From: Fidelibacterota bacterium
GTDB taxonomy: Bacteria; Fidelibacterota; UBA8477; JABMPR01
Direction of reading: 5' to 3'
DNA: 36,607 nt
Assembly: GCA_013202495.1 (NCBI GenBank)
Contig: JABMQQ010000148.1
Coordinates: forward strand, 1 to 36,607
In this document: positions 8,638-20,548 of the stretch, piece by piece
Position numbering within the stretch: position 1 is the stretch's first letter
Layout: every line of letters begins with the position of its first letter
Notes under the pieces: generated by a model
Database searches by the model: none
Seen by the model: the letters and a program-made list of their open reading frames with translations, nothing else
Told to the model about the DNA's origin: nothing
Program-made: the position numbers and the translations under genes

Positions 8638-11124
8638 GTGGTAAAACTGAAATCGATAAAAGAATTAAACGGTCACCTGGAATCTAACCAGACTCCTGAG
8701 CGTCCCGCCTCGGCAGAGGGTAATTTCTATGACGAACTGGGGATGGATGTTATTGGTCCTGGTATGAACACCAGGATTCAACGACTGCGGAAAATGAGTT
8801 TTGAGGCAGAGCCCAGCTTGTCCATTGAACGAGCCCTGCATCAGACTGCCTTTTATAAGGCGCATTTCGGAAAACACTCTACCCCTGTCTTCCGAGCCCT
8901 AACCTTTCTGGACCATTGCAAAAAAAAGACCCTCTATCTTGGTGATGATGAACTTATTGTAGGCGAGCGCGGACCTTTTCCAAAGGCCGTCCCTACATTT
9001 CCTGAATTAACCTGTCATTCCGTTGAAGATTTTCATGTGTTAAACACCCGAGATCAACAACGCTATACCATCAGTCAGGCTGACATTGATACCTATGAAA
9101 AAGAAATAATTCCTTATTGGAAAGGCAGAACCCAGAGAGAACGAATATTTAATCATGTCCCTGATACCTGGCGTCAAGCCTATGAAGCCGGCTTATTTAC
9201 AGAGTTCATGGAGCAGAGAGCGCCAGGCCACACTGCTTTAGATGGTAAGATATATAAAAAAGGTATGTTGGATTTTAAGCGTGATATTCAAGCACATATT
9301 GACTCGCTCGACTTCTTGAATGATCCTGAAGCTACAGACAAGCTTGAACAGCTAAAGGCAATGGATATTTCCTGTGATGCCGTGATTCTTTTTGCCAATC
9401 GTCATGCTGATCTTGCGGAGGAAAAAGCTCAGGAGGAGACCAATGCACAGCGTAAAACGGAGCTATTGAAAATTGCTCAGGTCTGTCGCAGGGTTCCCGC
9501 CCATACACCCCAGACTTTCTGGGAGGCCTTACAGATGTACTGGTTTGTTCATCTTGGAACCATTACAGAGCTCAATGGCTGGGATGCCATGAACCCTGGT
9601 CATTTCGACCAACATCTCGCCCCTTTTTATGAAAAAGAGGTCGCCGAAGGCAGTCTGACTCGAGAAGAGGCTAAGGAACTGCTCTGCTGCTCCTGGATCA
9701 AAGTGAACAATCAGACGGCTCCGCCAAAAGTCGGTATTACAGCAAAAGAAAGTGGCACCTATAACGATTTTACCAATATCAATATCGGTGGCTTGACTCA
9801 AGATGGTAGCGATGGCGTCAGTGAGGTATCTTACATCATGTTGGAGGTTATAGAAGACCTCCATTTGCTGCAACCTGGAACCTCTGTTCACATCAGCCCC
9901 AAAACTCCTGATGAGTTTCTCCATTCTGCTGCAAAGGTGATCCGGCAAGGTCACGGTTATCCCTCTGTCTTTAATCCTGAAACCTACATCCAGGAAATGG
10001 TTGATATGGGTAAATCTCTCAGGGATGCTCGGGAAGGTGGCTGCAGCGGGTGTATCGAAGTCGGCGCTTTTGGCAAAGAGGCCTTTCTGTTAACTGGATA
10101 CCTAAATGTGCCTAAAATTCTTGAAGTAACTCTCAATAATGGAATAGACCCCCTCACGGGCAAGACGGTAGGTATTCAAACTGGGAACCCAGAATCTTTC
10201 GGTTCATATAAAGCGCTTTATAGCGCCTTTCTTGAACAACTCAGCTATATCGTGGATCAGAAAATCCGGGTGAGCAATTATATCGATACCATGTTTGCCA
10301 AATATGCTCCCGCTCCCTTTCTTTCCGTGTTGATAGATGATTGCATCTTAAAGGGTCGTGACTATTACAATGGCGGTCCCCGTTATAACACCAACTATAT
10401 TCAGTGTACCGGACTGGCAACGGTTACAGATAGTCTTTCCACCATCAAAACCCATGTTTTTGAAAAACAGAGTTTGAGCATGAAGGCTCTCCTTGAGGCT
10501 GTATCAAAAAACTTTAGCGGTGAAGAAAAACTACGACAGACTATAGTAAACTGGACTCCCTTTTTTGGAAATGATGACGATAGAGCTGATGGTATCGCTG
10601 TACAGGTTTATGAAGATCTGCTCAAGGTCATCGATGGCAAACCCAACACCAAGGGCGATGTCTTTCATCTCAACATGCTTTCAACAACCTGCCATATCTA
10701 TTTTGGTAAAGTTCTGGGAGCCACACCCAATGGACGTCTTGCTGGGAAATCCATATCGGACGGGACTTCACCCTCGCATGGGTGTGATATCAACGGACCC
10801 AGTGCTGTTATAAGCTCCCTGACAAAGTTGGACCATACACGCTCAGGAGGTACCCTCTTGAATCAGAGGTTCTTGCCTAGTTTGTTAAAGAGAGATGCAG
10901 ACATTAAAAAGCTGGGGAGTTTGATTCGGAATTATTTCAAGCGCGGGGGACACCATATCCAATTCAATGTGGTTGATACAGCAACCCTGAGAGCTGCGCA
11001 AAAAAATCCTGAAGATTATAAAGACTTGTTGGTCCGCATGGCTGGCTACAGTGATTATTTCAATGACATGAATGCTGATCTACAGCAAGAAGTAATTGAC
11101 CGCACAGAAAACGAATCTTTTTAA
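8638..11124 (+). CDS. hypD: Glycyl radical enzyme, trans-4-hydroxy-L-proline dehydratase (HypD)-like
   Basis: The 828-residue enzyme is a glycyl radical enzyme of the PFL-like fold. The thiyl Cys is C472 with acid E474 in GCSGCIEVG, and the radical Gly is G803 in VRMAGYSDYF. The spacing of 331 residues equals that I recall for Clostridioides difficile HypD (C434, G765). Residues matching its active-site His160, Asp278 and Phe340 are present with a constant offset of 38: H198 (RAPGH), D316 (WDAMNP) and F378 (YNDF). HypD dehydrates trans-4-hydroxy-L-proline to pyrroline-5-carboxylate. The listed GTG follows the promoter directly; about 40 N-terminal residues exceed the clostridial protein, so ATG 8743 or 8764 could be the true start. 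The activase gene follows after 11 bases. Confidence 0.88.
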   Translation: MVKLKSIKELNGHLESNQTPERPASAEGNFYDELGMDVIGPGMNTRIQRLRKMSFEAEPSLSIERALHQTAFYKAHFGKHSTPVFRALTFLDHCKKKTLYLGDDELIVGERGPFPKAVPTFPELTCHSVEDFHVLNTRDQQRYTISQADIDTYEKEIIPYWKGRTQRERIFNHVPDTWRQAYEAGLFTEFMEQRAPGHTALDGKIYKKGMLDFKRDIQAHIDSLDFLNDPEATDKLEQLKAMDISCDAVILFANRHADLAEEKAQEETNAQRKTELLKIAQVCRRVPAHTPQTFWEALQMYWFVHLGTITELNGWDAMNPGHFDQHLAPFYEKEVAEGSLTREEAKELLCCSWIKVNNQTAPPKVGITAKESGTYNDFTNINIGGLTQDGSDGVSEVSYIMLEVIEDLHLLQPGTSVHISPKTPDEFLHSAAKVIRQGHGYPSVFNPETYIQEMVDMGKSLRDAREGGCSGCIEVGAFGKEAFLLTGYLNVPKILEVTLNNGIDPLTGKTVGIQTGNPESFGSYKALYSAFLEQLSYIVDQKIRVSNYIDTMFAKYAPAPFLSVLIDDCILKGRDYYNGGPRYNTNYIQCTGLATVTDSLSTIKTHVFEKQSLSMKALLEAVSKNFSGEEKLRQTIVNWTPFFGNDDDRADGIAVQVYEDLLKVIDGKPNTKGDVFHLNMLSTTCHIYFGKVLGATPNGRLAGKSISDGTSPSHGCDINGPSAVISSLTKLDHTRSGGTLLNQRFLPSLLKRDADIKKLGSLIRNYFKRGGHHIQFNVVDTATLRAAQKNPEDYKDLLVRMAGYSDYFNDMNADLQQEVIDRTENESF

Positions 11125-11135
11125 AGCCGCTTCTC

Positions 11136-12077
11136 TTGATAACCACCACTCTTCAAGCCAAAGACCAAACGAGTTCCAGCCTCATTTTTGATATCAAGCG
11201 CTATGCTATTAATGATGGCCCTGGTATCCGAGTCACTGTCTTTTTCAAGGGCTGTCCGTTGTCCTGTGTGTGGTGTCACAATCCAGAAAGTCATTCCAAG
11301 TCGATACAAAAAATGTATAGCCGGGAAAAATGTATTGGCTGCGAAGCTTGTATAGAGGCTTGTGAGCAAAACGCCTGCATTCTTACTGCTGGCGGTATTG
11401 TCACAAATCAGGACCTTTGTATTCTGTGTGGCAAGTGTGCAGAGGTTTGCCCCACCAAGGCAACAGAAATGTCGGGAGAGCAGCTCATGATAAAAGACAT
11501 CATGGCGGTTATCTCTAGCGAAAAGTCGCTTATGGATGAATCTGGAGGTGGGGTTACTTTTTCTGGAGGCGAACCACTTATGCACCCCGATCTCTTGATC
11601 CCTCTTCTGGATGAGTGTGGAAGCCGGGGAATTCATCGATGCGTCGATACAACTGGGCTTGCCAGCACTGAATTGCTGATTCAGATTGCAGCCAAGACTG
11701 AGTTGTTTTTGTTCGATTTGAAAATGATGGACTCGGAAAAGCACCTCAGATATACCGGTGTCAACAATACAACCATTCTGAACAATTTGCAGCTCCTGGC
11801 TAAAACCGATGTAGATATCATCATCAGAATACCGCTAATCAAAGATGTAAATGATGATGATCAAAACATTCAGGCCTCAGCGAAATTTATTGCCGCTTTG
11901 CCAGGAAAGACGAGAGAGGTCAACCTCCTGCCCTTCCACAATTCGGCTGCTAAAAAACATGAAAAACTGGGTCAAAGTTATGACACAACCCTGATGGATG
12001 AACCTGACCAAAAACGTCAGTTGGAAATTGTCGAAGTTTTCAATGGGTTTGGGGTCATTGCCAGTATTGGCGGATAA
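11136..12077 (+). CDS. Glycyl radical enzyme activase (radical SAM)
   Basis: This 313-residue radical SAM protein should install the glycyl radical on the preceding HypD-like enzyme. The SAM-binding 4Fe-4S motif CxxxCxxC is in GCPLSCVWCHNPE, and the SAM contact GGE is in TFSGGEPLMHPD. Between them lie two ferredoxin-type CxxCxxCxxxC clusters (CIGCEACIEAC and CILCGKCAEVC), the insert typical of activases of non-PFL glycyl radical enzymes. The only standard start in frame is the TTG at 11136, 11 bases after the hypD stop codon; conserved sequence begins near SLIFDIKRYAINDGPGIRVTVFFKG. Tight spacing suggests translational coupling. Oxygen-sensitive clusters imply activity under low oxygen. Confidence 0.93.
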   Translation: MITTTLQAKDQTSSSLIFDIKRYAINDGPGIRVTVFFKGCPLSCVWCHNPESHSKSIQKMYSREKCIGCEACIEACEQNACILTAGGIVTNQDLCILCGKCAEVCPTKATEMSGEQLMIKDIMAVISSEKSLMDESGGGVTFSGGEPLMHPDLLIPLLDECGSRGIHRCVDTTGLASTELLIQIAAKTELFLFDLKMMDSEKHLRYTGVNNTTILNNLQLLAKTDVDIIIRIPLIKDVNDDDQNIQASAKFIAALPGKTREVNLLPFHNSAAKKHEKLGQSYDTTLMDEPDQKRQLEIVEVFNGFGVIASIGG

Positions 12078-12252: not shown

Positions 12253-12825
12253 ATGTTTAACCGATTTTTTATATTGCGCCCGCTCTTGATACGTGGTGTC
12301 TTGCTGCTCCTTGTGCCGCTGCTTTCTATTCAAGCCCAAAGGATTCGTGTGAATCCCGATACGCGGATGAAGGCTGTCTTTTTAATTAATTTCACCAAAT
12401 ACATAAGCTGGACAACCCTGGATACGGTTAAAAATTTCACAATAGGTGTTTATGGGTTAGATGATATTCTACTCCCCTTAAGGCAAATGTCAAAAGAACG
12501 CGCTTCTGAGGGTCAAAAAATTGAGGTTGAGCGCGTAGAAAGTGTTGAAGAAATTGAAGTTTGCGATATTCTTTTTGTCCCCATCAATCAAACCGATGCT
12601 TTTCACGAATTGCGTCCCAAGATCCCACCTCAAAACATTCTGTTGGTTGGAGAATCGCTTGGCTTTGCCACCAGCGATGGCGCCATTAACTTCATAAAGC
12701 GTGATGGAAAAATAAAACTGGAAATCAATCGCAAGGCGCTCCAGGCGGCAAATCTGACGGCTAGTTCTCATTTGTTAAAGCTGGCAATTTTAGTTGGTGA
12801 AGAGGAAGCCCCTTTCCGTGATTAA
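12253..12825 (+). CDS. YfiR-like periplasmic protein (DUF4154)
   Basis: From the ATG at 12253 the product has 190 residues, the length of Pseudomonas YfiR. A Sec signal peptide (basic n-region, Leu-rich core, probable cut after A28 in SIQA-QR) precedes a DUF4154 domain with KAVFLINFTKYISW, an ILLVGES strand and the C-terminal INFIKRDGKIKLEINRKAL block. YfiR represses the membrane diguanylate cyclase YfiN through its periplasmic sensor domain. Only one Cys (C102) is present after the signal, so the two disulfides of Pseudomonas YfiR are lacking. A TTG at 12190 would give 21 more residues, but these are not signal-like. The next gene overlaps by 8 bases and encodes a CHASE8-type kinase, a likely partner. 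Confidence 0.85.
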   Translation: MFNRFFILRPLLIRGVLLLLVPLLSIQAQRIRVNPDTRMKAVFLINFTKYISWTTLDTVKNFTIGVYGLDDILLPLRQMSKERASEGQKIEVERVESVEEIEVCDILFVPINQTDAFHELRPKIPPQNILLVGESLGFATSDGAINFIKRDGKIKLEINRKALQAANLTASSHLLKLAILVGEEEAPFRD

Positions 12826-14296
12826 ATTTCAAGATCTGTCAATCAAATTAAAGCTGATTTCAATTCAACTTTTCACGACCCTATTTATCCTGGTTTTCTT
12901 TGTAGGTATCTATCTGTATAGCCAGTATCACCAATATGAAGTCCGTGCATTTACCCGCATGTCAACTCTGGCGGAAATTTTAGGCTCGAATAGCATTTCG
13001 GCTCTATTGTTTTTTGACAATGATGCGGCAACTGATGTGCTGGAATCTCTAGAAACCCAAACCGATGTTCTCAATGCAGTGGTTTATGACCACAACGGTG
13101 ACGCTTTTGCCCGTTTTGACCGAAAAGGTTATGCCGGCTACAGCTTTGGTCTTTTGGATGTCGAGAGAAAAACGGCCGTGGCTGGGCATTTTGTTCTTAC
13201 AAAAAAAATTATTTTCGATGATTTAAAAGTCGGATGGATAGCCTTAAGGTTGGATTCAAGTAATCGGCGGTCAGAGTTACTTGAGGCGGTCTGGCAGTCC
13301 TTTTTGCTCTTTATTGCGGGTATAATTCTAGCTGGACTTTTGTCAATCCGTGCTCAAAGACCGATTTCCGATTCCATTGGCACGCTGGCTGAGACGGCCA
13401 AACAGATTAAAGAGTCAGGTGACTACACCATTCGAGTAAAATCAGGCTCCCGGGATGAGATCGGTCTGCTTGTGGGCAGTTTTAACGACATGCTTGAAAA
13501 AATTCATGACCATGAACAACACCTTGAAAAGCTCGTAGCTGAGAGAACAGTTGAGTTGGAGGCGGCCAAAACAAAAGCCGAAGAGTCTGACCACTTGAAG
13601 TCTGCATTTTTAGCTTCTATGTCCCATGAGTTAAGAACTCCATTGAACTCCATAATCGGATTTACCGGTATCCTCCTCCAGGGTATGGCCGGTCCTTTGT
13701 CAGAAGAGCAAACCAAGCAGCTCAGCATGGTAAAGGGAAGTGCTTCACATCTATTAGAGTTGATTAATGATATACTTGACATTTCAAAAATCGAATCCGG
13801 TCGTGTACAGGTTTATGATGAAGCCTTTAAAATAGATCTGTTGCTGGTTATGGCTGTGAGTTCTCTGCGGCCCTTTGCTGAAAAAAAGGGGTTACGCTTG
13901 AGACATAAAATCGAGTCAGGTCTCCCAAAACTTTACACCGACAAGAGACGTCTGGAACAGGTCTTGATTAACTTGATCAACAACGCCATCAAGTTTACTG
14001 AAACCGGTGAAATAATTGTTAACTGTTACCATAAAGAAGATCTGTTAAATATCGATGTCATTGATACTGGTGTTGGCATCGGTGAAAAGGATTTGGAAAC
14101 CATTTTTGAAACCTTCCGACAGATCGACACCGGGCTTGACCGCGTGAAAGAAGGCTCCGGTCTTGGGCTGGCTATCAGTAAAAAATTAGTAGAATTGTTG
14201 AGTGGCACCATCAATGTTGTAAGTGAACCCGGCATCGGCAGTACTTTTTCTATTGTCTTGCCCCTCCAGGTGGAGAAATCATCAGATGAAGATTAA
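12818..14296 (+). CDS. CHASE8-HAMP sensor histidine kinase
   Basis: With GTG 12818 as start (AGAGGAAG nine bases upstream) the kinase has 492 residues. Order: membrane helix 13-33; a periplasmic sensor of about 120 residues with the CHASE8-like run RMSTLAEILGSNSISALLFF and AVVYDHNGDAFARF; second helix 158-177; HAMP 180-232; short coiled coil; HisKA with phospho-acceptor H270 in SHELRTPLN; HATPase with N box (NLINNAIKF), G1 (DTGVGI) and G2 (GSGLGL). It should autophosphorylate and pass phosphate to the receiver encoded next. The CHASE8-HAMP front end is the arrangement of YfiN, here joined to a kinase instead of GGDEF. A TTG at 12794 is an alternative start. Confidence 0.93.
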   Translation: MIKFQDLSIKLKLISIQLFTTLFILVFFVGIYLYSQYHQYEVRAFTRMSTLAEILGSNSISALLFFDNDAATDVLESLETQTDVLNAVVYDHNGDAFARFDRKGYAGYSFGLLDVERKTAVAGHFVLTKKIIFDDLKVGWIALRLDSSNRRSELLEAVWQSFLLFIAGIILAGLLSIRAQRPISDSIGTLAETAKQIKESGDYTIRVKSGSRDEIGLLVGSFNDMLEKIHDHEQHLEKLVAERTVELEAAKTKAEESDHLKSAFLASMSHELRTPLNSIIGFTGILLQGMAGPLSEEQTKQLSMVKGSASHLLELINDILDISKIESGRVQVYDEAFKIDLLLVMAVSSLRPFAEKKGLRLRHKIESGLPKLYTDKRRLEQVLINLINNAIKFTETGEIIVNCYHKEDLLNIDVIDTGVGIGEKDLETIFETFRQIDTGLDRVKEGSGLGLAISKKLVELLSGTINVVSEPGIGSTFSIVLPLQVEKSSDED

Positions 14297-14657
14297 AACA
14301 CTTATTATTGAAGACAATGAAAACAACATGTACCTGATTTCATTTTTGCTTCAAAATAATAATCATGAAATTCATCAAGCTTATGATGGACAGGAGGGAG
14401 TTGAGCTTGCGAAAATAGTGCAACCTGATTTAATTTTGCTGGATATTCAACTTCCCAAAATGAATGGCTATGAAGTAGCTGTAGAGCTTCGAAAAGACGA
14501 TGCTCTCAAAACGGTTCCCATTGTGGCTATCACCTCTTATGCCATGCCAGGCGATCAAGAAAAAGCCTTAAGTGCTGGATGCACTGGGTATATAAAGAAA
14601 CCCATTAATCCCGACACCTTTTTGGGTGAAATCGAAAGTTATCTAGATAAAAAGTAG
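14286..14657 (+). CDS. Single-domain response regulator (CheY/DivK type)
   Basis: The ATG at 14286 overlaps the kinase gene by 11 bases and gives a 123-residue protein that is only a receiver domain. The acidic pair is E9-D10, the phospho-acceptor is D53 in LILLDIQLPKMNGYE, the switch Thr is T83 and the conserved Lys is K105 before P106. The sequence is of the DivK-like kind often found downstream of hybrid-type kinases. With no output domain it must act by protein contact or as a phosphorelay intermediate. Overlapping genes make the upstream kinase its obvious phosphodonor. I see no terminator hairpin with a T-run immediately downstream. Confidence 0.93.
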   Translation: MKIKTLIIEDNENNMYLISFLLQNNNHEIHQAYDGQEGVELAKIVQPDLILLDIQLPKMNGYEVAVELRKDDALKTVPIVAITSYAMPGDQEKALSAGCTGYIKKPINPDTFLGEIESYLDKK

Positions 14658-15848: not shown

Positions 15849-16709
15849 TTAGAAATCCATACGGTTGGCAGCCATGCTCACAAACAGGACGGGTAGATAA
15901 ATCAACATATAGCGGAAAAACTGTTTGGCTGTGGCCAGTTCACGATTGCTATAAAAACGGGTGACCATCACAATGGCTCCCATGGTCACCAGGGTTGCAA
16001 TTCCCAGATAGATTACACCGGAAACTTTAAAAATAAATGGCACAAAGATCAGGGGTACATTGACCAGGGTGTACCACAAACTCTGGCGGAAAGAAGCGTC
16101 CTCACCAGCGACAAAGGGTAATTGTTTACCTCCTGCAGCCAAGTATTGATCTTTATAGCGATAACAGATCACAAAGGTATGTGGAATCTGCCACAAAAAA
16201 ATCATGAGCGACATCCACAAAATCATCAAATCCACTCCCTGGGTCACAGAATACCACCCGATAAAAGGAAGCAATGCGCCTGGTAGTGATCCAACAGGAG
16301 TGCTCATGGTTGAACGCGATTTCAAGGGTGTGTAGGTCCAGACATAAAGCCCGCCGCACAGAAATGTGGCCAGTGCTGTAGTGGGGTTGATCAGTACATA
16401 TTGCAACGCGATTCCCAGGACAAAGAAGGCTAGGCCTGCTATCAGGGCAGTCCCTGGGGATATTTGACCAGATGGAATGGGACGACCCTGGGTTCGGGTC
16501 ATTTTTGCATCTCCATGGCGCTCATAGTATTGATTGAGGGCAAAGGTGGCTCCGTTAGCCATGCCTGTGGTTAGAACCAGAATGATGAGAGAGGTCCACT
16601 GAAACGGCAATCCCGTTTCATTCAAAGCATACATATGCGCGAAAACCACCATGAGCATAATCATGGGAATGGGTTTCAGGCGAAAGAGTTGTATGTAGGC
16701 TTTTAACAT
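15849..16709 (-). CDS. ctaB: Protoheme IX farnesyltransferase (heme O synthase)
   Basis: CtaB attaches a farnesyl group to heme b, giving heme o, the precursor of heme a for the oxidase encoded next to it. The 286-residue integral membrane protein shows the UbiA-superfamily motif at residues 59-79 (N59, E63, D67, then M70-T-R-T and RPIPSG), the second polar loop around CYRYKDQYLAAGGKQLP, and eight or nine hydrophobic segments. Q60 replaces the first Asp often seen in proteobacterial proteins. It lies in the same orientation as the cox genes but after a 234-base gap full of stem-loop repeats, so it may have its own promoter or depend on read-through. Confidence 0.95.
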   Translation of the reverse strand: MLKAYIQLFRLKPIPMIMLMVVFAHMYALNETGLPFQWTSLIILVLTTGMANGATFALNQYYERHGDAKMTRTQGRPIPSGQISPGTALIAGLAFFVLGIALQYVLINPTTALATFLCGGLYVWTYTPLKSRSTMSTPVGSLPGALLPFIGWYSVTQGVDLMILWMSLMIFLWQIPHTFVICYRYKDQYLAAGGKQLPFVAGEDASFRQSLWYTLVNVPLIFVPFIFKVSGVIYLGIATLVTMGAIVMVTRFYSNRELATAKQFFRYMLIYLPVLFVSMAANRMDF

Positions 16710-16764
16710 TGTTTCGGTCTTTAATTAAGTAGTACTGTCCTTAATGCGGCTTTCTTCTTTTGTC

Positions 16765-16936
16765 AACTCGAGCACTTCGGCCTCGCTCAGTATAAACTCC
16801 GTCGAGAGGTTCTGGTTTTCAGGATAGATATTTATCCCTCGACTCCGCTTGGGATGACGGTTTCTGTGTCACCCTGAGGCTCTCGAAGGGCGACAACTTG
16901 ATTGTGTCGTGCTTCGACAGGCTCAGCATGACACAA
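16765..16936. repeat. Cluster of imperfect stem-loop repeats between coxB and ctaB
   Basis: The gap holds at least two inverted repeats. One has 11-base arms at 16902-16912 and 16926-16936 with a single G-T wobble and the loop sequence TTCGACAGGCTCA. The other pairs 16868-16875 with 16887-16894, also with one wobble. A third related unit, containing CTCGACTCCGCTTGGGATGAC, lies at about 16838-16858. Phrases such as GCTTCGACAGGCTCAG are familiar to me as dispersed intergenic repeats in FCB-group genomes. They could form transcript hairpins that stabilise the cox mRNA end or stop transcription before ctaB. Confidence 0.7.
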
Positions 16937-16943
16937 CAAAACA

Positions 16944-17891
16944 TTACTCCGACAATTCCTTGATATGATCAATGATGGCCTGGACTTCATCGGCTGTCAT
17001 GGGTAAGGGAGGCATGAGGGGCTGATAACCCTTCACAATATCCTTTGATGGCTCCAGAATTGAGATCTTCAAATAGGCATCATCCACTGTGATTTCACGT
17101 TCCTCGCCATTTGTGACCACCACTTCTGTTTTTCCATATAACCCCTTAAATGAAGGGCCAATCAATTTGGTTCCGTCGCTGCTGTGGCAGGCAAAGCAGC
17201 CCTTTGAAGTAATCAAAGATAGCCCTGGATTTTCGGCCTGTTGTTTTATAAAGCCCGCGGATTGTTCATCCAGCCAGGCTTGATAATCAGGCTTGGTCAG
17301 TACGTGAACCTTGGTAATCATTTGGGCGTGGTTTAAACCGCAATATTCAGCGCAGAACAGGTCAAAATCACCAATCTGGCTGGCCTCAAACCAGGTGTAG
17401 TTGTCTTTCGCCCCGGCGGCTTTGGGAACCACATCCATTTTCACGCGGAAGGCGGGGACATAAAAAGAATGAACCACATCATTTGAATGCAGGGGCAGAT
17501 AAATCGGTGTGTCAGCTGGAACCGTAAGACCCTGAGCTGTGTTTTGCTCGAGACCGTTGGGGTAGGTGAATTTCCACCACCACATACCAGCATCTACCTT
17601 AATTTCCATGGCGTCTTTGGGTACATTTCTCATCTTTAGAAAACCCTGAAGGCCAAAATAGAAGAAAAGCATGACTAGAATTGTGGGGATAATCGTCCAA
17701 ACAATCTCAAGAGCAGTATTGCCGTGTAGGTTTGATGGAACCGGATTATTCTTACGATTGTACTTAATGATACTGAAGATGATGAAGCCGGTAATAAAGA
17801 TCAGGAAGAACAGACTTACCCACAGAATAAACCAAAAGGCAAAGTCTACATCTTGTTGAAAAACTGAGGCAGGGTTATAATTTACATTCAT
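16944..17891 (-). CDS. coxB: Cytochrome c oxidase subunit II with fused cytochrome c domain
   Basis: The 315-residue subunit carries the CuA electron-entry site of a caa3-type oxidase. Two membrane helices (about 20-43 and 62-85) lead to a cupredoxin domain with all CuA ligands: H141, C180, E182, C184, H188 and M191 in the block from 177 to 191. A C-terminal class I cytochrome c domain follows, with the heme motif C232-F-A-C235-H236 and a probable axial Met at 293 in PLMPPLP. The fusion lets an external donor reduce CuA directly. There is no cleavable signal or lipobox at the N-terminus. It overlaps the subunit IV gene by four bases and is the last cox gene, an unusual position. Confidence 0.96.
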   Translation of the reverse strand: MNVNYNPASVFQQDVDFAFWFILWVSLFFLIFITGFIIFSIIKYNRKNNPVPSNLHGNTALEIVWTIIPTILVMLFFYFGLQGFLKMRNVPKDAMEIKVDAGMWWWKFTYPNGLEQNTAQGLTVPADTPIYLPLHSNDVVHSFYVPAFRVKMDVVPKAAGAKDNYTWFEASQIGDFDLFCAEYCGLNHAQMITKVHVLTKPDYQAWLDEQSAGFIKQQAENPGLSLITSKGCFACHSSDGTKLIGPSFKGLYGKTEVVVTNGEEREITVDDAYLKISILEPSKDIVKGYQPLMPPLPMTADEVQAIIDHIKELSE

Positions 17892-18187
17892 GCTATCCCC
17901 CTGAAGGCGTAGTCTGAAAAGGTGAGCAAAAATAGGGTCGCCAGAGTAATAATAGCCAGGGCGACAAAGAGTTTGAAGATCAGCGGTTCATGATTCAGGT
18001 GCATAAAGAAATAAAGCACCAGCCCTGCTTTTACAGCCGCAACTGACATGGCTATAATCAAGGCTCCAGCATTTCCAATATCAAGACCGGACAACAACAC
18101 CGTGGCAATTGTCAGAAAAATGAGGGCAGAAAAAACGATGATGGATCCGCGAGGACTAAAAGACTGCTCTTTTGTATTCATATTCAT
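17888..18187 (-). CDS. Cytochrome c oxidase subunit IV-like (CoxD/CtaF)
   Basis: This 99-residue membrane protein has three hydrophobic segments and belongs to the small prokaryotic oxidase subunit IV family. Typical features are GSIIVFSALIFLTIATVLLS, a middle segment with MSVAAVKAGLVLYFFMHLNHEP, and a final helix ending in LTFSDYAFRG. The Lys-containing KAGLVLYFFMHL motif is the best marker of the family. It lies five bases after coxC and overlaps coxB by four bases, consistent with a structural subunit of the same complex. Its contribution to the oxidase is stability or assembly rather than catalysis. Confidence 0.88.
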   Translation of the reverse strand: MNMNTKEQSFSPRGSIIVFSALIFLTIATVLLSGLDIGNAGALIIAMSVAAVKAGLVLYFFMHLNHEPLIFKLFVALAIITLATLFLLTFSDYAFRGIA

Positions 18188-18192
18188 ACCCC

Positions 18193-18858
18193 CTATGCTA
18201 CCAGATAGTAAAGTGGAAAGAGGAAAATCCAGATCACATCAACCAAATGCCAATAAAGGCCACAACGCTCGAGAACACCTGCATTGTCCGGGTTAATACT
18301 TCCTTTAGAGATCCAGAAGTAGACAATGCCCATCCAGACAGCACCAATGATGATATGCAATGCGTGTGTACCCGTCATTATGAAGTAAAGGCCATAAAAG
18401 AGGACTTGTCCATCAGGCAACATTTCAGGTCCTGGTGTCAAAAGTGGCGACCCCTTGCCTTCAGCAATTGCAGCACTGGTCTGCAAAAACAGGTGGTGGG
18501 CAAATTTAGCATTCCACTCAAAACCTTTAATGATTAAAAATGTGGTTCCCAGACCCATGGTAATCAGGAGCATGGATTTCGCCAACTTTACCCGTCCTGC
18601 CTTCATGGCATTTAAAGACAATACCATGGTAAGGCTGCTGGCCAAGAGGATAATCGTATTCGTAGTACCAATACCCGTGTTCAAGCTTTCGGCCGCAATT
18701 TTGAAATCATTCAAATGGGCAGACCTATACACGCCATAAACGATAAAGAAGGCTCCAAAAAGAAGGAGTTCTGTAAAAAGGAATAGCCAGAAACCTAAAC
18801 GGGTTCCCTCTTCATCGTGATGATGAAAAGCCTCTACTGTCACGGCTTGCTCACTCAT
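18193..18858 (-). CDS. coxC: Cytochrome c oxidase subunit III
   Basis: Subunit III (221 residues, five predicted helices, the short bacterial form) stabilises the catalytic core. Typical blocks are GFWLFLFTELLLFGAFFIVYGVYR after a His/Glu-rich lead, TNTIILLASSLTMVLSLNA, and the closing TGTHALHIIIGAVWMGIVYFW with a GLYWHLVDVIWIFLFPLYYL helix. The LYWHxVDVxW motif is a family signature. Its start overlaps the coxA stop codon by eight bases. Nothing appears truncated relative to short A-family subunit III proteins. Confidence 0.95.
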   Translation of the reverse strand: MSEQAVTVEAFHHHDEEGTRLGFWLFLFTELLLFGAFFIVYGVYRSAHLNDFKIAAESLNTGIGTTNTIILLASSLTMVLSLNAMKAGRVKLAKSMLLITMGLGTTFLIIKGFEWNAKFAHHLFLQTSAAIAEGKGSPLLTPGPEMLPDGQVLFYGLYFIMTGTHALHIIIGAVWMGIVYFWISKGSINPDNAGVLERCGLYWHLVDVIWIFLFPLYYLVA

Positions 18859-20548
18859 CTCTTGCTCCCTTAGACGTTCCCGCTTTCACTTCAGCCCTGA
18901 AAGCATCATAGTCATAGGGATGTCTAGTGACAATCGGGTCTTCATCAAAATTATAGAGTGTCGGGGGTGATGCTGTCTGCCATTCCAGGGTTGATGAATT
19001 CCAGGGGTTTTCCTCGCTGCTTATTTGTCCTTTACGCAGGCCGTGAATCCATGTGATAAACATCAGGATGACACCCACAACCAAGATCCAGGATCCAATG
19101 GTTGATGCTTGTTGCAGATTGGTAAAGAGGGGAATGTCTGGGTAGGTGTGATAGCGCCTGGGCATGCCATAAAACCCGAGAATAAACATGGGTATAAATA
19201 GGGCGTTAAAACCTGTAAACATGAACCCAAACGTCGCAGTAGCCAGTTTTTTAGAATACATTTTACCAAACATTTTTGGGAAGTAGTGGAAGATGCCACC
19301 AATAATTCCAAACGCCGCTCCGCCAAACATTGTATAGTGAAAGTGAGCCACAATAAAATCGGTGTCATGGAGGTGGATATCAGTGGACAAAGACCCCAGG
19401 AACATGCCGGTAAGGCCGCCAATACTAAAATTGAAGACAAAACCCAGGGCAAACAGCATGGGCGGGGTCAATGCAATAGAAGCCTTGTAAAGGGTAGCTA
19501 TCCAATTAAAGACCTTGATGGCCGTTGGAATAGCCACAAAGAAAGTCAAAAAAGAGAAGATAATAGAGGCTACATCAGACATTCCTGTGGCAAACATATG
19601 ATGAGCCCAGATTAAATAACCTACACCAGCAATACTGCATGACGCAATGGCAATACTCTTATATCCAAAAATTGGTTTCTGACTGTTGGTAGGGATAATC
19701 TCACTGACCAGACCCATTGAGGGCAAGATCATCACATAAACCGCGGGGTGGGAGTAAATCCAGAAGAGATGTTGAAACAAGATGGGATCGCCCCCTTTGT
19801 TGGGGTCAAAAAACCCAACAGGCATCATCCTTTCAAGAACAATCATCAATAAAGTAATACCCACAACAGGAGTCGCCAGCACCTGTATCCAAGAGGCTGC
19901 ATAAATTGACCAGGAAAACAGAGGCATTTTAAAATAGCTCATGCCTTTTGCGCGCATCCTGTGAATAGTAATAATAAAGTTTATTCCCGTCAGGATAGTT
20001 CCCCAGCCCAAAATAAAAGCTGCCGTCAACATCCAGGAAACGGAGTCAAATTGTGTCCCAAACATGGAAATGGTTCTGGTTGTCACAGAGTAGGGCGGTG
20101 TAAAGGTCCAGCCCGTGTCAGCCCCACCCAAAAGAATTCCAACTACGGCCATAATTGCACCAAACAAATACAGCCAGTACGAGAGTAGGTTGACACGGGG
20201 AAAAGCAACATCCTTGGCTCCGATCTGTAGAGGCAGAAAGAAATTACCAAGAACTGCAGGTGCACCTGGAACAATAAAAAGAAAAATCATAATCACTGAG
20301 TGAAGCGTGAAAAAAGAGCCATACCACTCTACGGGAATGATTTCCCAGCCACTGGCGGCTGGATAAAATTTCTGGAGTTTGATTAAAAACCCAAGGCAAA
20401 CAGCCAAAAAGAAGAAGGAGAACATTGTGAAACCGTACATAACACCGATTCTTTTGTGATCTGTCGATGTTATCCAGCTCATAAAACCAGTGGTCCACCG
20501 ACTACCGGTGTGACTATTCAAGTAGCTGGTGCTGCTAGCTGTTTCCAT
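18851..20548 (-). CDS. coxA: Cytochrome c oxidase subunit I, A2-type (caa3)
   Basis: The 565-residue catalytic subunit reduces oxygen to water and pumps protons. Heme a ligands are H83 (TLHSVIM) and H404, the heme a3 ligand is H402 (AHFHY), and CuB ligands are H267, H316 and H317, with cross-linking Y271. The proton-channel Glu of A1 oxidases (HPEVY) is Ala269 here, within Y265-S-H-P-A-V-Y271; this YSHPxVY form marks A2-type enzymes such as Thermus and Rhodothermus caa3. K-channel residues T342 and K345 (PTAIK) are kept. The gene begins two bases after sco and overlaps coxC. The DxxxN region is visible in QIGAKDVAFPRVN. Confidence 0.97.
   Translation of the reverse strand: METASSTSYLNSHTGSRWTTGFMSWITSTDHKRIGVMYGFTMFSFFFLAVCLGFLIKLQKFYPAASGWEIIPVEWYGSFFTLHSVIMIFLFIVPGAPAVLGNFFLPLQIGAKDVAFPRVNLLSYWLYLFGAIMAVVGILLGGADTGWTFTPPYSVTTRTISMFGTQFDSVSWMLTAAFILGWGTILTGINFIITIHRMRAKGMSYFKMPLFSWSIYAASWIQVLATPVVGITLLMIVLERMMPVGFFDPNKGGDPILFQHLFWIYSHPAVYVMILPSMGLVSEIIPTNSQKPIFGYKSIAIASCSIAGVGYLIWAHHMFATGMSDVASIIFSFLTFFVAIPTAIKVFNWIATLYKASIALTPPMLFALGFVFNFSIGGLTGMFLGSLSTDIHLHDTDFIVAHFHYTMFGGAAFGIIGGIFHYFPKMFGKMYSKKLATATFGFMFTGFNALFIPMFILGFYGMPRRYHTYPDIPLFTNLQQASTIGSWILVVGVILMFITWIHGLRKGQISSEENPWNSSTLEWQTASPPTLYNFDEDPIVTRHPYDYDAFRAEVKAGTSKGARDE

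Follow-up and report, generated by a model that had tools for sequence, protein, structure and literature searches.

A YfiR-like protein encoded with a CHASE8-HAMP histidine kinase and a single-domain receiver in a Neomarinimicrobiota genus

The closest described relatives of the locus reported here are the YfiBNR systems of Pseudomonas aeruginosa and Escherichia coli, in which YfiR is paired with YfiN/DgcN. YfiR represses YfiN by binding to it (PMC3375315), and it has been proposed that YfiR, through a hydrophobic site towards its C terminus, shields an exposed phenylalanine of YfiN (F70, in the motif AAVVF) (PMC3375315). P. aeruginosa YfiR contains two disulfides, Cys71-Cys110 and Cys145-Cys152 (PMC4655355). 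Divergent Yfi systems have also been reported that keep the contact residues but carry GGDEF-EAL, HPT, sensor histidine kinase or MCP domains in place of GGDEF (Malone et al. 2012, PMC3375315). In addition, NCBIfam holds models for both partners of a kinase form, NF053591 (TOL_0243 family YfiR-like periplasmic protein) and NF053592 (HK_near_YfiR_like; sensor histidine kinase, YfiR-like protein-associated). Given that report and those models, the pairing of YfiR with a kinase is already known, and the locus described here is a divergent example of it. In a search of the open-licence literature, no experiments on YfiR paired with a kinase were found.

The window, that is, the whole stretch of 36,607 nucleotides that was analysed, carries three overlapping genes on the forward strand. 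The first (12253-12825; ATG at 12253, stop at 12825) encodes a YfiR-like protein of 190 aa (DUF4154, PF13689), the second (12818-14296; GTG at 12818) a sensor histidine kinase of 492 aa with the order TM-CHASE8-TM-HAMP-HisKA-HATPase, and the third (14286-14657; ATG at 14286) a single-domain receiver of 123 aa with no output domain, recognised by its motifs and by Pfam. The first two genes share 8 bases and the last two share 11; an open reading frame check together with Pfam bears out the gene coordinates, both overlaps and the domain order of the preliminary description. In-frame TTG codons are found upstream of the kinase start (12794) and in the YfiR frame (12190), so that the exact starts of both proteins are unproven. 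In one relative (L075) the 8-base overlap is present too and the 11-base overlap is not, the kinase stop lying 3 bases ahead of the receiver. In the genome of the window (86% complete), DUF4154 and CHASE8 each match once, at this locus (12253-14657). The window kinase is 87-91% identical to the kinases of four loci from Candidatus Neomarinimicrobiota MAGs, and on this ground the window is taken to belong to that group. As in YfiBNR, a DUF4154 protein accompanies a CHASE8-HAMP front end with the motif phenylalanine, and the hydrophobic pocket residues are present; unlike YfiBNR, the output is HisKA-HATPase plus a receiver, with GGDEF absent, and three of the four YfiR cysteines are missing. None of the five scanned neighbours (HypD, activase, NUDIX, YdjM-like, GNAT) is a YfiB-like (OmpA-like) gene. 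The locus resembles the divergent systems of Malone et al. (PMC3375315) in pairing a YfiR homolog with a histidine kinase whose front end is YfiN-like, and differs in its separate receiver and its place in Neomarinimicrobiota, the examples considered from that paper belonging to other taxa.

The assignment of the YfiR-like protein is supported by both profile and structure. It matches Pfam DUF4154 at 4.7e-32 (111.5 bits, above the cut-off of 24.9), and its top NCBIfam family is NF053591 (1e-27), where a score of 97 bits falls short of the cut-off of 125; likewise, NF053592 is the top family of the kinase front end, with 149.8 bits against a cut-off of 194. At a threshold of 1e-5, NF053591 matches all 61 members of the YfiR alignment and NF053592 all 60 of the CHASE8 alignment, the model of YfiR proper matches 40 of the 61, and the DgcN/YfiN model (NF007423, 2.5e-19 for the window kinase front end) all 60. 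The N-terminal hydrophobic helix of the YfiR-like protein is predicted to be a signal peptide. Its AF2 model (pLDDT 90) has as best Foldseek matches the P. aeruginosa YfiR structures (4yna_C, 1.5e-7; 4yn9_A, TM 0.75 by target length), followed by a weaker likeness to a single-domain substrate-binding protein of Rhodothermus marinus (8wgl, 5z6v; E ~1e-5), and by these two methods the protein has the YfiR fold. A phmmer search of the PDB with the single sequence returned one chance match only, and a profile search with the YfiR-like family recovers YfiR.

In an alignment of the window protein with 60 of 69 YfiR proteins (those omitted being mostly divergent or near-duplicate), its sole cysteine, Cys104, aligns with P. 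aeruginosa Cys110, the positions of Cys71, Cys145 and Cys152 are taken by Gly65, Ala139 and Asn146, and both P. aeruginosa-type disulfide pairs are absent. The Cys110 equivalent is kept in 52 of the 61 aligned proteins and the Cys71 equivalent in 23. The preliminary description had counted one cysteine, as the alignment to P. aeruginosa YfiR confirms, and had held that redox disulfides cannot be the switch. This stands for intramolecular disulfides, which a single cysteine rules out, and a redox switch of the P. aeruginosa kind is rejected, as only the Cys110 equivalent is left; it does not stand for intermolecular disulfides, which are compatible with the sequence. The kinase also has one cysteine, residue 403, in the ATPase part. 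Judged from the alignment, the residues that line the pocket in P. aeruginosa YfiR have hydrophobic counterparts in the window protein (F151 to I, I160 to I, F162 to L, I169 to L, V176 to A, V180 to L, L181 to L and L183 to L).

The kinase matches Pfam CHASE8 (PF17152, 12944-13246) at 1.9e-13, and its score of 51.0 bits against a cut-off of 27 upholds the earlier reading of the periplasmic domain as CHASE8. HAMP (1.8e-10, 41.4 bits, cut-off 25), HisKA (3.6e-22, 78.6 bits, cut-off 26.9) and HATPase_c (2.5e-26, 92.7 bits, cut-off 26.4) follow, and the receiver matches Response_reg at 5.1e-25, above the curated cut-off. The H, N, G1 and G2 boxes could be located, the kinase has kept the HExxT motif, which is associated with phosphatase activity, and the phospho-acceptor aspartate of the receiver sits in LLDIQLP; to judge from these motifs, the phospho-acceptor regions are intact. 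The window motif SALLF aligns with AAVVF of YfiN, placing kinase F65 (codon 13010-13012) at the position of F70. This residue is invariant in an alignment of the window with 59 of 74 CHASE8 fragments (omitting mostly divergent or near-duplicate ones). The window pair thus has the motif phenylalanine on CHASE8 and the hydrophobic pocket on YfiR that mark the Yfi core module. The front end of the kinase was modelled with a pLDDT of 91.9. A single long helix spans residues 9-64 of this model and stops just ahead of F65, and F65 is therefore probably located at the membrane-distal tip of CHASE8. Foldseek placed this front end closest to an integrative WalK-YycH model (9a5d, 4.4e-10), then to two integrative MCP models and then to a LapD ortholog, in its periplasmic domain (4u64, 7.2e-4). 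WalK-YycH is similar in that an extracytoplasmic accessory protein acts on a kinase with a PAS/Cache-like sensor and HAMP; YycH is membrane-anchored and is not known as a DUF4154 protein. The match to the LapD ortholog is consistent with the LapD-like architecture proposed for YfiN (PMC3838380). Nearly all of the 28 matches in a PDB profile search with the front end were limited to the TM2/HAMP part.

The arrangement is conserved among relatives of the window. DUF4154 and CHASE8 occur together in 15 of the 19 genus genomes, and the other four lack the two; the kinase follows the YfiR gene in all 15, window included, and the receiver follows the kinase in 14, being missing in L080. Conservation of the gene order in related genomes, on which the preliminary description depended, is thereby confirmed (kinase in 14 and receiver in 13 of the 14 relatives fetched). 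In a sample of 245 genomes of the phylum, DUF4154 was found in 26 and CHASE8 in 31, with both in 25, DUF4154 alone in one, CHASE8 alone in six and neither in 213. Five of the 14 relatives have a fourth gene after the receiver (L047:8312-9508, L048:8380-9555, L049:8342-9517, L050:8416-9558 and L074:1273-2460), encoding a receiver-kinase fusion, and the three scanned with Pfam have the order receiver-HisKA_2-HATPase_c. Such a fusion suggests a phosphorelay. The window lacks this gene, and no full-length copy was found in its genome (86% complete), where the best match is 52% over residues 168-395 and without the receiver part.

The genes around the cassette differ in how far they travel with it. 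A NUDIX gene related to that of the window flanks the cassette in all 14 genus relatives. Upstream, at 8638-12077 of the window, lie genes for a trans-4-hydroxy-L-proline dehydratase (the glycyl radical enzyme HypD; 1163 bits against an NCBIfam cut-off of 1100) and its activase. This pair precedes the cassette in the window and six of the 14 relatives and is absent there in eight, and the idea that the cassette works together with these dehydratase genes is for that reason unsupported. On the opposite strand (15849-20548), the cassette is adjoined by a gene for a prenyltransferase of the UbiA family and by genes for the cytochrome c oxidase subunits COX2, COX4-like, COX3 and COX1. In several relatives the cassette is followed by open reading frames whose first residues are identical to those encoded by the UbiA gene.

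DUF4154 was also searched for in three further groups, the class of genome G247 and the phyla of G249 and G245, which include loci with the titles Sedimenticola, Cytophagales and Geobacter, and was found in 18 of 143, 26 of 198 and 12 of 99 genomes of these groups, respectively. With the window's own phylum, the four groups yielded 118 DUF4154 open reading frames, window excluded. A CHASE8 gene, as detected with HMMs built from the same loci as were counted, adjoins 85 of the 118 and lies downstream in 84 of these 85. The 85 partners comprise 67 histidine kinases (23 with attached receivers), six GGDEF proteins and one MCP, the last two outputs being recognised by motif only, and 11 other or truncated proteins, several of them at contig or locus ends, which are counted in the total. 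All six GGDEF cases fall in the class of G247. When the 14 cassettes of the window's genus are removed, kinases still make up 53 of 71 partners. The kinase is thus the usual CHASE8 output in the groups sampled, and these counts suggest that the diguanylate cyclase version is a minority form in them. The preliminary description had implied that YfiR-kinase pairing is rare; with kinases in 67 of 85 CHASE8 partners, the report of Malone et al. 2012 and NCBIfam models for both partners, this idea is rejected.

The DUF4154 family has other contexts as well, since 29 of the 118 open reading frames, all counted in the total, have no CHASE8 neighbour. In four more cases an N-terminal DUF4154 and a histidine kinase are fused in one open reading frame (L135:4979-7309, L136:4912-7044, L137:4768-7149 and L138:3232-5514); PAS was found in three of them and CHASE8 was undetected. 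A DUF4154 gene on the reverse strand of L110 (5009-7417) lies downstream of a DAHL-sensor histidine kinase without CHASE8, possibly a further type of partner. Another without a CHASE8 neighbour (L126:5676-6497) is followed by a Peripla_BP_2 binding protein, which hints at an uptake-linked role. On the reverse strand of L145 (5026-6330), a protein of 434 aa combines CarboxypepD_reg, a TonB C-terminal domain and a weak DUF4154 match (7.9e-07). The genome G246, to which locus L038 (titled Thiotrichaceae) belongs, has nine DUF4154 matches in 4.7 Mb, several without an adjacent CHASE8. Finally, at L058:4415-6551 (reverse strand) the one MCP partner, a CHASE8-like chemoreceptor, adjoins a YfiR-like gene amid other open reading frames with MCP motifs.

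Two further lines of evidence bear on direct contact between YfiR and CHASE8. Phenylalanine occupies the F65 position in 84 of 85 YfiR-adjacent CHASE8 rows (the window plus 84 of the 85 partners, one short fragment having been removed by a length filter), the exception being the MCP of L058, in which it stands one position earlier in that alignment. Among 22 CHASE8-like controls from genomes without DUF4154, the position holds phenylalanine in five and tyrosine in three, and among the seven controls scoring at least 80 bits phenylalanine is found in two; the average control is a more divergent CHASE8 protein, which weakens this test. They comprise 14 of 17 CHASE8 matches from 14 DUF4154-free genomes and all eight matches from six more, and CHASE8 proteins distant from DUF4154 in DUF4154-bearing genomes are in neither set. 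In addition, across 49 kinase pairs, with two of the 14 genus pairs retained, YfiR distances correlate with those of CHASE8 (r 0.77), which is partly due to shared descent, and the kinase core, although on one polypeptide with CHASE8, correlates at 0.30 with either YfiR or CHASE8. None of 2000 permutations of the YfiR-CHASE8 comparison reached 0.77, the largest value being 0.23. Such a pattern would be expected of a module in which YfiR and CHASE8 stay together as the outputs change. Gene order, co-occurrence, the partner-specific phenylalanine and correlated divergence, all read from sequence, together support the partnership proposed in the preliminary description.

We consider it likely, with some confidence, that a periplasmic switch of the Yfi type here controls a two-component system, and that the locus is a divergent member of the described class. 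The four DUF4154-kinase fusions found in other genomes also speak for this reading. The YfiR-like protein would be exported to the periplasm, where, as conservation suggests, its hydrophobic pocket would receive F65 at the membrane-distal tip of CHASE8. By analogy with YfiN, we infer that the effect of YfiR on the kinase is repression and not activation, and bound YfiR would most likely keep it non-signalling. Removal or alteration of YfiR in response to a signal would then let the CHASE8-TM-HAMP unit switch the kinase, which would phosphorylate the single receiver encoded in the overlapping gene. The two neighbours might instead be co-inherited without direct contact. The genus does share its flanks, the NUDIX gene included, and inside it vertical descent would be enough to preserve the gene order, but adjacency recurs in three other groups with CHASE8 almost always downstream, the phenylalanine is partner-specific, and YfiR tracks CHASE8 and not the kinase core, so we regard mere synteny as very improbable.

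More weight, within an unlikely range, is due to a reading in which the YfiR-like protein binds CHASE8 as a ligand-loaded activator, in the manner of a small periplasmic binding protein, its solute-bound form switching the kinase on. Such a role would fit the likeness of the YfiR model to the Rhodothermus marinus substrate-binding protein, and the inputs known for YfiR are not evident here, there being no OmpA-like gene among the five scanned neighbours, no TonB-dependent receptor directly upstream in any of the 14 relatives and neither of the disulfide pairs. The Foldseek likeness to YfiR itself is stronger, however, and the relative YfiR represses YfiN through binding (PMC3375315), both of which argue against an activator.

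The census also bears on what may lie above YfiR. With an HMM for which ten of the receptors themselves served as input, a TonB-dependent receptor was found directly upstream of 51 of the 118 DUF4154 genes (for example in L054, L088, L128, L066, L160, L146, L132, L156, L162, L103, L098 and L135), including all four kinase fusions; the same slot holds a receptor for six of 530 other open reading frames longer than 300 aa at the same loci. Pfam identified the TonB-receptor Plug in twelve of thirteen long upstream open reading frames chosen mostly by length, L135 and L098 among them, and the thirteenth, in L110, is the DAHL-domain kinase. In the window's genus no receptor lies upstream of the cassette (0 of 14), and DUF4154 genes outside the cassette do have one (L051, L057 and L066). 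Malone et al. (PMC3375315) do not use the word TonB in their main text, and no study linking YfiR with a TonB-dependent receptor was found in the open-licence literature. These gene neighbourhoods suggest an outer-membrane input to YfiR-kinase systems through a TonB-dependent receptor. It is tempting to extend this, as a possibility that we rate below even chances, to a general picture in which YfiR and CHASE8 form an envelope plug-in receptor module with mainly kinase output, commonly fed by a TonB-dependent receptor encoded upstream in a relay from outer membrane through periplasm to inner membrane; the genus cassette would then have lost or unlinked its receptor, and the disulfide-free YfiR-like protein would itself be the sensor.

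The locus extends the kinase version of the Yfi module to a genus of Neomarinimicrobiota. The small size of the pair (190 aa and 492 aa), its lack of paired cysteines and its predicted contact residue make YfiR control of kinases testable, and the census suggests that TonB-dependent receptors may be partners of these systems.
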